DNA from: a gamma proteobacterium HTCC5015
GTDB lineage: Bacteria > Pseudomonadota > Gammaproteobacteria > HTCC5015
DNA: 33,253 nt
Assembly (NCBI GenBank): GCA_000155715.1
Contig: DS990602.1
Location: forward strand, 2,468 to 35,720
Direction: 5' to 3'
A program made the translations under genes and the position numbers. The stretch's first letter is position 1. Every line of letters starts with the position of its first letter. The notes under the pieces are model-generated. The model ran no database searches. It saw only the letters and a program-made list of their open reading frames with translations, and was not told the DNA's origin. Positions 30,159 to 33,253 of this stretch are shown here, piece by piece.

Positions 30159-30174
30159 AAAATTGCGGTGTCCT

Positions 30175-31101
30175 ATGAATGTTTTGTCTTTCTTTTTAAA
30201 CGCAACCTTACTAGCTCTGGCTTTATTCACTAGCGCTTGCAGCCTACCCAAAACGCTGCCACCTCAGGCGGATACATCCCACAAAATATCGTTTGATGAC
30301 GACTCATTTAAAAATCAGACGGTTCAAGCACATATCATCGCTTTACACAGTTTTGGCGATAATCACCACGCCTTTGATCACTGGCAAGTTTGGGCCAAAA
30401 GCCATGGCTATGCTCTGCATCACTATGATCAACGAGGCTTTGGCCACCGGGGAAAGCTGGGGCGCTGGTACGGTAGTGAAGCCATGGTCAGTGACGCCAT
30501 CTCGCTTGCAGAGCGCATTCGCGGCCACTCTGACAAACCCATCTACTTAATGGGAGAGAGCATGGGCGGAGCGATCGCCATTCTCGCAGCGGTAGAAAGG
30601 CCACAATTGTTTAGAGGACTGATCTTAGCCGCCCCTGCCGTACGCGAGGGGATTCTCGTTCGCTACCCCTACAACGCGGCGTTGAACATGGTGGCCAGTA
30701 TCAGCCCAAGCACCACTGCGAGCATTGAGCGCGACCCCGACAACCCAGAGCTGATTTCAAGCACAGCGCAGCGTCTAGCGCACTCCCCCCACACGCTGCG
30801 AGACATTCGAATGGACACCTATCGCGGACTCATACGCCTAGCGGACTTGGCCAGTGACCAAGCACCCAAACTCCATATTCCCGTATTACTGTTTTACGGC
30901 GGCCAAGACGAAAGCGTGCCCGAAGTTGCAATCAAAAACCTCAGGCGGCATTGGCAAGGCCATGTCACTTATGTCTACCAAAGCGAATGGCCACACCTCA
31001 TTTTTCAATCCACAGCGTGGAAGTCCGTCGCTGATACCGCACATGAATGGCGTCACTCACTCGACAATCGCGGTAAGCTGCATTGCAGGAAGGCTTGTTG
31101 A
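30175..31101 (+). CDS. Alpha/beta hydrolase, probable lipoprotein (monoacylglycerol-lipase-like)
   Basis: The 308-residue protein has an N-terminal hydrophobic stretch ending ALFTSAC, a plausible lipobox with Cys22, so it is probably an envelope lipoprotein. The hydrolase core shows IIALHSFGDN (oxyanion region, about 54-63), HHYDQRGFGHR, and nucleophile Ser129 in MGESMGG. A later Asp in FYGGQDESVP and His in EWPHLIF complete the triad. This matches monoacylglycerol lipase/lysophospholipase-like enzymes; the substrate is inferred. A TTG at 30163 in frame is nearer to the GGAG SD; the ATG at 30175 better fits a signal peptide. It is preceded by a promoter with two palindromes and followed 61 bases later by the pro-domain-like gene. 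Confidence 0.88.
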   Translation: MNVLSFFLNATLLALALFTSACSLPKTLPPQADTSHKISFDDDSFKNQTVQAHIIALHSFGDNHHAFDHWQVWAKSHGYALHHYDQRGFGHRGKLGRWYGSEAMVSDAISLAERIRGHSDKPIYLMGESMGGAIAILAAVERPQLFRGLILAAPAVREGILVRYPYNAALNMVASISPSTTASIERDPDNPELISSTAQRLAHSPHTLRDIRMDTYRGLIRLADLASDQAPKLHIPVLLFYGGQDESVPEVAIKNLRRHWQGHVTYVYQSEWPHLIFQSTAWKSVADTAHEWRHSLDNRGKLHCRKAC

Positions 31102-31162: not shown

Positions 31163-31576
31163 ATGAAGCTAATCACAGCTCTCTTACTCGCCTTTATTGT
31201 ATTTTCTCAAATCGCCTGCGTAGCCGCTAATAGCGAATCCAACTCGCTAGACAAGCCCTCCGCACCAACAAAAGCGCCAACTCACAATATGGAGGCCTCT
31301 CTCTCTGATTGGCTTCAAAACGGCCATCCCCCCAGTGATCTGCCCGTGCAACTGGATATTCAGACAAGTGGGCTCAAGGCAATCAATAAGCAAGCGATCA
31401 AGGACACAGGCGCATCAATACTCGGCTTCTACCCCAAGTACGAGCGAATCAGCGCTACTGCCAATACACCCCAAGTGATTGAGCAAATTATTCAATTGCC
31501 CTTTGTGCGGCATATCGCGCTGGAACACGGCGCCCAACAAAAAGGCACAAAACCCGCTTCTCGCAAACCCCAATAA
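31163..31576 (+). CDS. Small secreted protein resembling a stand-alone protease pro-domain
   Basis: The 137-residue protein has an N-terminal signal (about 1-22; SQIAC at 15-19 could be a weak lipobox, or signal peptidase I may cut after VAA), a polar linker, and a domain at about 60-125. That domain aligns by eye with residues about 67-128 of the next gene product. Shared positions include VQLDIQT/VDVVLNT, AIKDTGASIL/AIERAGGKVL, the K..RI.AT/K.LRATV region, and FVRHIALEHG/QVQYIYPDYG. This is the layout of an inhibitor-I9-like pro-domain, so the protein may chaperone or inhibit the adjacent protease in trans. It lies 12 bases before that gene. The ATG has SD AAGGA. Confidence 0.75.
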   Translation: MKLITALLLAFIVFSQIACVAANSESNSLDKPSAPTKAPTHNMEASLSDWLQNGHPPSDLPVQLDIQTSGLKAINKQAIKDTGASILGFYPKYERISATANTPQVIEQIIQLPFVRHIALEHGAQQKGTKPASRKPQ

Positions 31577-31588
31577 CGGAGTACCAGG

Positions 31589-33091
31589 ATGAGTACGTCA
31601 AAATCTTACGGGCTAATACTGTCCGCATTGCCACTTCTCTTCGCTTTTTCAAACGCCACTGCAGGCAAAGTCGACACTGGCAAAGTAAGTAGCAATTTGG
31701 CACCTAAAATAGGTCAGCTTGCCAATAAACATTCTCAATACAGCCAATCCACTACATCCAAAAAGACCAATGCCTCCGAGCCCATTCGCGTGGATGTGGT
31801 TCTGAATACTGTAGACAGCGGCACTAAAAACGCCATTGAGCGAGCCGGTGGCAAAGTGCTTCAAATGAATTCTAAAGCTCTGCGCGCCACAGTAGAAATT
31901 GATCACCGAGCCGCTGTAGAAGCCATTGCTGCACTCGCTCAGGTTCAATACATCTACCCTGACTATGGTTATGCGCAACGTGCAGGCTCAGTGACCAGCC
32001 GAGCTCCCAATGCTTTAGACACCATCAGTTTATCCGGTGCCCCCGACAACTTAGACGGCAGTGGACAAACCGTCGGTATTCTCTCAGACAGTTTTGCCAG
32101 AACGGGCGATGTCCGAAATGGAGGCACAACGCCAGCCGCCTGTACTGCAGGTATTTTAGAGGGCACCACACCACAAAATTCGGGCGACCTCCCAAGCCAG
32201 ATCGACCTCCGTTCCGACGATGCATCTTCTGCTGACTGCCCAAACGCTGGCGACAATATCGATGAGGGCGCGGCCATGGCTGAACTGGTTTACGATATCG
32301 CACCAGGCGCCAATATTGCCTTTCACCAAGCAGGCCCTGGTATTGCGGGCTTTGCCTCAGGTATTGATGACCTCTGTACACCCACCTCCGATGGCGGCGC
32401 TGGCGCTACAGTGGCCGTTGACGACATTATCTACTTTGCCCAGCTCATGTATCAAGCAGACCCTGTCAGCCAAGCGGCCAGCAACTGCCACAAATCGGGC
32501 ATTCCCTATCTGACGGCAGCGGGCAACAACGCCAACCTAGCATTCCACGAAACCTATGTTGATAGCGATCCTACCGACAACGCCGATGGCAACTTTCCCA
32601 GTGACTCGGAAGGCGACTACCACCAATGGAGTAATGGCAGCAATAAGATAGCTGTAACTCTGCAAAATGGTGAGAGCTTCCGCGCCGTATTACAGTGGAA
32701 CCAACCCGCCCTCTCTGTGCCAGACAACACCAGCAATGGCCCACAAATTGACCTTGACTTACACGTTCACGATGGCCCAAGTAGTACAAGTTCTATCTTG
32801 GCAGAGTCAATCGAAGACCAACTTGCTTTTAACTCGGCGAGTGGAGCAGACCCCTTCGAAACAGTCACTATTGAAAATAACAGTGGCGGGAGCGCAACGG
32901 TCTACATTGGCATCAGTCACTGGGCAGGTAACAAAGACAACATCCCCCAAGACAGCAACACTCCCCTAGAATTTCGCTTGGTATTTTTCCCACAGGGTTC
33001 AACCGATCTTGATCCAGTAGCTGACTTCAGCCCTGATGCCGATGGGCCGACTATGTATGGCCACAGCAATCACCCCAAGTCATGGCGGTAG
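31589..33091 (+). CDS. Secreted subtilase-like (S8 family) protease, frame broken before the catalytic serine
   Basis: The 500-codon frame has a signal peptide (cleavage after ATA, residue 25), an I9-like pro-domain (about 65-128), and an S8-like domain from about 140. Asp167 lies in VGILSDSFA. The position of the usual HGTH motif reads DEGAAMAELVYDIAPG (225-240), with Glu226 in place of His. VDDIIYF and AAGNN (310-314) match the substrate-cleft region. The catalytic serine motif is not reached. The frame ends GHSNHPKSWR-stop, whereas the -1 frame from 33079 continues with family-like sequence, so a one-base loss near the CCCC at 33073-33076 is likely. It could be a real mutation or a sequencing error. 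SD GGAG precedes the ATG at 31589. It forms a pair with the pro-domain-like gene. Confidence 0.85.
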   Translation: MSTSKSYGLILSALPLLFAFSNATAGKVDTGKVSSNLAPKIGQLANKHSQYSQSTTSKKTNASEPIRVDVVLNTVDSGTKNAIERAGGKVLQMNSKALRATVEIDHRAAVEAIAALAQVQYIYPDYGYAQRAGSVTSRAPNALDTISLSGAPDNLDGSGQTVGILSDSFARTGDVRNGGTTPAACTAGILEGTTPQNSGDLPSQIDLRSDDASSADCPNAGDNIDEGAAMAELVYDIAPGANIAFHQAGPGIAGFASGIDDLCTPTSDGGAGATVAVDDIIYFAQLMYQADPVSQAASNCHKSGIPYLTAAGNNANLAFHETYVDSDPTDNADGNFPSDSEGDYHQWSNGSNKIAVTLQNGESFRAVLQWNQPALSVPDNTSNGPQIDLDLHVHDGPSSTSSILAESIEDQLAFNSASGADPFETVTIENNSGGSATVYIGISHWAGNKDNIPQDSNTPLEFRLVFFPQGSTDLDPVADFSPDADGPTMYGHSNHPKSWR

Positions 33092-33253
33092 CGGCCGTTC
33101 CCTGGTGGGAGGCTCCTGCCTTCGACCCGTCCGGGTATCTACCTACAACAGGCATAGACCCAGAGTCGTTCACTTCTAAAGGTGGCGTGTTGGAGTGGCA
33201 ATTTGCCGAGGATGGCTCCTTTGTGAAACAAACCTTACCTCAGAAGCCCGACT
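33079..33253 (+). pseudogene. Continuation of the subtilase-like protease in the shifted frame, cut by the window end
   Basis: Read from 33079 this frame gives VMAVAAVPWWEAPAFDPSG, then DPESFTSKGG and, at the edge, LPQKPD. These are the segments expected after GHSNHP in this protease family, where an A-V-G-A-V-like strand and a KPD motif precede the catalytic serine. It has no start of its own and is continuous in meaning with the frame that stops at 33091. The serine would lie beyond the window. Confidence 0.75.

Follow-up and report, generated by a model that had tools for sequence, protein, structure and literature searches.

A stand-alone homologue of a protease pro-domain, encoded beside a DEG-type subtilase-like protein, in gammaproteobacterium HTCC5015

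Toward the end of a 33,253-nucleotide stretch of DNA from the gammaproteobacterium HTCC5015 (GenBank assembly GCA_000155715.1, contig DS990602.1, positions 2,468 to 35,720; hereafter the window), a small open reading frame (ORF) lies directly ahead of a gene for a subtilase-like protein. The window is on contig 26 of this 2.6-Mb, 30-contig genome (G000). Our analyses indicate, with high confidence, that the small ORF encodes a free-standing homologue of the protease pro-domain and that the two genes form a conserved pair. On balance, we lean toward the reading that its product is a trans-acting propeptide that binds and controls the adjacent protease, as an inhibitor held in the cell envelope.

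The small ORF starts with ATG and runs from position 31163 to 31576 on the forward strand, its 137 codons specifying a protein of 137 amino acids (aa); the next ORF on this strand, of 500 codons, begins 12 bases further on and spans 31589 to 33091. The small protein stands alone, with its own start, stop and signal sequence and no protease domain. The features of the pair are as follows.

31163 to 31576, forward strand: free-standing pro-domain homologue of 137 aa without a protease domain (ORF, homology and predicted fold).
31163 to 31219, forward strand: signal sequence up to Cys19; a Cys preceded by Ala or Gly is present in six of six copies, this copy having a poor lipobox (Gln at −3).
31346 to 31522, forward strand: predicted propeptide-fold core of the small protein (AlphaFold predicted local distance difference test [pLDDT] ~95 to 97; best Foldseek match 1spb_P, the subtilisin BPN′ prosegment).
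31589 to 33091, forward strand: subtilase-like protein, N-terminal 500 aa, the frame closing just short of a scaffold gap (relatives 43 to 46% identical over most of the query).
31778 to 31972, forward strand: pro-domain core of the protease itself, a homologue of the small protein (profile searches; same element order in the model of the protease at locus L027, residues 66 to 124).
32087 to 32089, forward strand: presumed catalytic Asp codon of motif I (ILSDS), invariant in 10 of 10 aligned proteases.
32261 to 32269, forward strand: DEG triplet where the subtilase His motif is expected, likewise invariant in all 10 (correspondence to the HGT motif by eye).

Direct comparison of the two window proteins gave a weak match (22% identity, E 0.01 in a search within the genome itself), with a local BLOSUM62 score, after removal of the signal peptides, of 73 versus a maximum of 64 in 2000 shuffles. 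We nevertheless accept the homology because the profiles of the relatives settle it. In BLASTP comparisons, the window small protein matched the ORFs upstream of the protease in the genomes G267 (E 3.7e-8) and G157 (E 3.5e-7). A profile of three small proteins alone, searched in 11 genomes, found the pro-domain of the adjoining protease in G000, G267 and G157 (E 1.2e-11, 7.5e-7 and 2.2e-4 among these three paired genomes). These hits constitute independent evidence because no pro-domain was included in the profile. The same profile matched the pro-domain of G367 (E 4.8e-10), a genome that lacks the small gene, produced one extra match at chance level in the own genome, and gave no match at E 1 in the remaining seven of the 11 genomes, G363 among them. 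An hhalign comparison of six small proteins with 12 pro-domains yielded a probability of 99% and an E of 9.3e-18 over 109 columns, a match that also takes in a helix ahead of the core; the pro-domain core shared with the small proteins comprises 65 residues and is nearly gapless. The profile hits and this alignment confirm what the original prediction had seen by eye, that the 137-aa protein aligns with the adjacent pro-domain and has no protease domain. The small protein had no family match in Pfam (at E 1), NCBIfam or PADLOC, and I9 was not among the six Pfam families listed at E 10 for 18 aligned members. Profiles built from the small proteins, or from the pro-domains, returned nothing, or weak unrelated matches, when searched against Protein Data Bank sequences.

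The fold of the small protein was modeled with AlphaFold on an 18-sequence alignment that included pro-domains. The model contains strands at residues 62 to 68, 85 to 90, 95 to 100 and 115 to 120 and helices at 73 to 81 and 103 to 110 (pLDDT ~95 to 97), and these six elements of the core (residues 62 to 120, pLDDT ~96) run in the order found in propeptides; confidence is lower over the first 60 residues and the last 17. Foldseek placed subtilisin or subtilase propeptides or pro-enzymes at ranks 1 to 6, the top match being 1spb_P (E 9.7e-3, probability 1.00, root mean square deviation [rmsd] 1.8 Å, template modeling score 0.73 by target). With VIA-align, pro-subtilisin E scored Z 9.7 (rmsd 1.6 Å, 62 aligned), other propeptides scored Z 8.3 to 9.5, and the stand-alone inhibitor POIA1 (1v5i_B) scored Z 7.1 (rmsd 2.8 Å, 67 aligned). 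The small protein is thus predicted to take the subtilisin-propeptide fold. The original prediction had staked its case on an I9-like structure and, when one was looked for, the nearest folds by both methods were subtilisin propeptides. The same element order is predicted for the pro-domain of the L027 protease (residues 66 to 124); the rest of that model is poor (mean pLDDT 55.3), and it was used for the pro-domain only, being too poor to judge the active site. Kumamolisins, Ser-Glu-Asp enzymes of family S53, appear low in the Foldseek list of this model, and we draw no conclusion from them; the S53 triad is named in the excerpted text of PMC9549277.

The free-standing gene was found in six genomes from four families (G000, G267, G157, G180, G622 and G541). 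Five of the six copies, all but that of G541, lie directly upstream of a protease of the DEG type on the same strand. The gap at the junction is +12 bases in G000, −1 in G267 and in G157, about +59 in G180 and +2 in G622, the junction in G267 and G157 being a 1-base overlap, TGATG. The contig of G541 stops within the small ORF or immediately behind it, leaving the downstream neighbor off the contig, and the protease of G180 is cut by a contig end. For the small gene of G267 versus that of G157, the nonsynonymous divergence (dN) was 0.42 and the synonymous divergence (dS) 1.22, the latter near saturation. Linkage to proteases in other genomes, which the original prediction had proposed to survey, did not refute it: the pair recurs.

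The gene is rare. In the class sample, the protease was matched at E ≤1e-15 in 11 of 369 genomes, the own included, at 14 places. Among the 13 places other than our own, the surroundings of all of which were inspected, a small ORF homologue was directly upstream of the protease in two of the 10 other genomes, G267 and G157. The three-protein profile matched five of 368 class genomes: G157, G267, G180 (a new pair), G367 (the pro-domain) and G368 (marginal). A four-protein profile matched nine of 398 phylum genomes, namely the own genome, G541 and G622 with E <1e-20, and six more at E 5.8e-4 to 0.0085; both of the weak matches that were opened (two of the six) were unrelated. Free-standing copies are thus present in 3 of 368 class genomes and 3 of 398 phylum genomes. 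Within the order of G180, one of six genomes matched, G180 itself; matches were obtained in two of 74 genomes of the family of G622 and in three of 78 of its class, the third being an unrelated sensor kinase. The class, phylum, order and family samples overlap, and the counts are not additive. Weak profile hits in G670 and G517 were rejected as copies since they fall in sensor-kinase ORFs, as was that in G438, which falls in an unrelated small protein. Further weak matches occurred in G508, G559, G719, G729 and G368 (E 0.005 to 0.009), and no subtilase was seen among the longer ORFs around the G368 match. A first scan of relatives matched seven of 55 genomes at E ≤0.1, the own included; one of these matches, that of G043, was opened and lies among unrelated ORFs. 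A plasmid search found one distant protease, in Persicobacter, and, with the G180 copy as query, no small protein. A pattern scan of contigs from 84,980 species returned 56 stretches, of which only the G267 copy was confirmed, the two patterns used probably being too strict.

The contigs that carry the copies of G541 and G622 measure 3.1 and 4.8 kb, and the contamination recorded for G622 is 8%. We are unsure of their host assignment, and their occurrence could reflect recent transfer or binning contamination. In that family, the pair is on short contigs (G541 contig 190, L066; G622 contig 7, L065).

The genes flanking the pair differ between families: by eye, G267 and G157 have an ABC-2 type transporter-like protein, G180 a TypA-like GTPase in divergent orientation and G622 an IlvE-like gene. 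In the window, the pair is preceded by an alpha/beta hydrolase ORF (30163 to 31101; PF12146, E 8e-36), the start of which (LFTSACSLP) likewise resembles a lipoprotein signal. A scan of promoters and terminators gave counts no different from chance.

Each of the six small proteins begins with a hydrophobic stretch, after which comes a Cys preceded by Ala or Gly. A PROSITE-like lipobox pattern was present in five of six small proteins, in one of 12 pro-regions of the proteases and, as background, in 15 of 351 ORFs of at least 100 aa. From these signals, most relatives of the small protein probably carry a lipid anchor.

The protease next to the small gene retains its own pro-domain, in the window and in relatives. 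An SDS motif, containing an Asp that we take from subtilase motifs to be catalytic, the DEG triplet and an AGN motif are invariant in the 10 aligned proteases, and all eight that are long enough carry the GTSAAAP Ser motif, two of them with one change (GTSAAAT and GTSAAVP). The label of DEG-type subtilase-like protein given to it in the original prediction is accurate. Peptidase_S8 (PF00082) scored above its cut-off in L025, L027 and L065 and below it in L026 (20.1 versus 21.8), and did not match the window ORF or the truncated L028, both of which are without that part of the protein.

The truncation in the window warrants comment. A run of 394 N begins at position 33254 (L003:2722-3115), directly after the last base of the window, 33253, and the protease frame shifts relative to its relatives less than 200 bases before this gap (33060 to 33253). 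Beyond it, the gene appears to resume, encoding a PKD domain and a C terminus that is rich in Gly, hydrophobic and basic (L003:3116-3610). We rejected a real pseudogene, since the frame change adjoins the gap and the architecture of the relatives resumes after it; the stop at 33091 and the missing 3′ part are probably an assembly artefact. The window protease would probably be annotated as a truncated gene. The tail after the gap resembles GlyGly-CTERM surface-sorting signals, and none of the NCBIfam sorting models passed its threshold in this tail. The protease of G363 (L026:4716-7340), which has no small gene, ends, unlike its relatives, in a CFI-box-CTERM domain (NF041770, E 1.9e-20).

As we envision it, the small gene would have arisen by duplication of this protease family's pro-domain and would be kept as a separate secreted protein, probably lipid-anchored in most relatives and probably made from one transcript with the protease. 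After export, it would assume its predicted propeptide fold unaided and bind the catalytic domain of the adjoining protease in the manner of a propeptide; in this way, the enzyme may be held silent within the cell envelope up to its own export or the removal of the inhibitor. We consider the chances about even that inhibition is the main role. We favor inhibition over folding because the protease has its own pro-domain, which leaves no obvious need for another folding aid, and because in Plasmodium the same arrangement, SUB1 with SUB1-ProM, has a potent and selective stand-alone inhibitor. More tentatively, and with more doubt than belief, we suggest a membrane-tethered trans propeptide, in which a lipoprotein guard from the same operon would silence a Glu-type (DEG) surface protease in the periplasm until its export.

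Several observations weigh against an envelope-held inhibitor derived from the pro-domain. The Foldseek E values are moderate, none being ≤0.001, and the ferredoxin-like folds of Atx1 and NapD also score; in VIA-align, NapD equals the best Z of 9.7, though with an rmsd of 7.7 Å. A tree over the 65 core columns had no supported branch, and a single origin of the free-standing copies was not seen in it; attempts to date or count their origins were dropped for lack of signal. Among the five genomes with the closest relatives of the protease (at least 43% identity over most of the query), the small gene is present in three, while two, G363 and G367, hold the protease with no free-standing copy, so the protease can do without the small protein. 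The window small protein misses the lipobox pattern owing to its Gln at −3 and could be cut instead by ordinary signal peptidase. The C-terminal tail of a propeptide enters the active site of the protease; in the six small proteins, the tail past the last strand is not conserved and varies in length, which makes a tight, product-like plug less likely, barring a tail that is trimmed when it binds. Finally, the 10 aligned proteases depart from the Asp-His-Ser triad: their DEG, matched to the His motif by eye, has Glu where His is expected, so protease activity is putative. A search of open-access papers for Glu standing in for His in subtilases found nothing.

The main rival to inhibition is a dedicated folding helper, a steric chaperone acting in trans and needed beside the protease's own pro-domain for folding in the periplasm before export. 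There is precedent for it in ORF2 of Aeromonas sobria, a separate chaperone gene beside its protease that, in the excerpted text of PMC5638518, is needed for mature ASP and is also inhibitory, and the order of small gene then protease, with tight or overlapping junctions, would suit co-translation. However, the protease here has its own pro-domain, unlike ASP, and G363 and G367 hold it without the small gene, leaving this explanation somewhat unlikely. We find it improbable that the lipoprotein is instead a membrane anchor or assembly partner, docking the protease at the outer membrane through the pro-domain fold with any inhibition incidental. The precedent is dentilisin, for which the excerpted text of PMC8167434 describes an interaction of PrcB with PrtP and no detectable PrtP without PrcB, and five of the six small proteins have the lipobox pattern; the window copy fails it, however, and the Gly-rich, hydrophobic, basic C terminus of the protease points to an anchor of its own, although none of the NCBIfam sorting models scored it above its cut-off.

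Two further explanations would deprive the small gene of any such role. Its rare and patchy distribution, with two close relatives lacking it, is what a functionless leftover duplicate of the 5′ end of the protease gene could give, yet its own signal sequence, the Cys conserved in six genomes and four families, the intact frames, the fixed position and dN < dS make this very improbable. That an unrelated small lipoprotein resembles the pro-domain by eye alone, through chance, has in its favor the weak pairwise match in the window (E 0.01) and the lack of a Pfam or NCBIfam family; it is contradicted by the profile E of 9.3e-18, the profile hits on pro-domains and the predicted propeptide fold, and we regard it as hardly credible.

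The proposed envelope-held inhibitor has parallels among known systems. As portrayed in the excerpted text of PMC6993865, Plasmodium SUB1-ProM is a stand-alone protein that inhibits a subtilase potently and selectively, while SUB1 keeps its own propeptide; like the pair described here, it combines a small propeptide-like protein, a gene adjoining subtilase genes and a subtilase with its own propeptide. It differs in being eukaryotic and in that inhibition was demonstrated there, whereas here the role is a proposal. SUB1-ProM is also not known to have a lipoprotein signal, and its partner is an ordinary His-type subtilase. The stand-alone I9 inhibitors (Pleurotus POIA1, yeast proteinase B inhibitor and Arabidopsis SPI-1) likewise have the propeptide fold without a protease; neither the window protein nor any of the 18 aligned members has a Pfam I9 match, and none of these inhibitors is known to be an operon partner. 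In bacteria, ORF2 of A. sobria is a separate chaperone and inhibitor of ASP, a protease without a propeptide (PMC5638518 and PMC9549277, as excerpted), and is encoded, as here (in five of six genomes, with a contig end in the sixth), by a separate gene adjoining the subtilase gene. By those excerpts, orf2 lies downstream of a protease without a propeptide, whereas here the small gene lies upstream of a protease with a pro-domain. PrcB of Treponema denticola is a small lipoprotein and partner of the subtilase PrtP, encoded by the first gene of the prcB-prcA-prtP operon; in the excerpted text of PMC8167434, it is not described as a propeptide homologue, and prcA lies in between; it is set apart by description, not sequence. 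PopD of Myxococcus xanthus, also likened by description only, is a protein that restrains its partner, the protease PopC (PMC6434023, as excerpted).

In the open-access literature, we found no report of a bacterial lipoprotein that is homologous to a propeptide and paired with a DEG-type subtilase, most subscription papers lying outside the search. The original prediction that no pair with a subtilase of this type had been described stands to that extent, and needs qualifying in that separate partners beside subtilase genes, SUB1-ProM and Aeromonas ORF2, have been described. Propeptide inhibitors that stand alone are already known, as is a subtilase chaperone encoded by its own gene; the pairing with a DEG-type protease was not found described.

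Propeptides are normally part of the protease and are lost upon activation. A second copy, separately encoded and conserved next to a protease that retains its pro-domain, would split inhibition from folding. Such a copy would be the counterpart in bacteria of SUB1-ProM and would offer a way into the DEG-type subtilases, the activity of which is putative. If the tethered form is correct, the lipoprotein guard would be a separable safety device for Gram-negative cells, on top of the covalent pro-domain.
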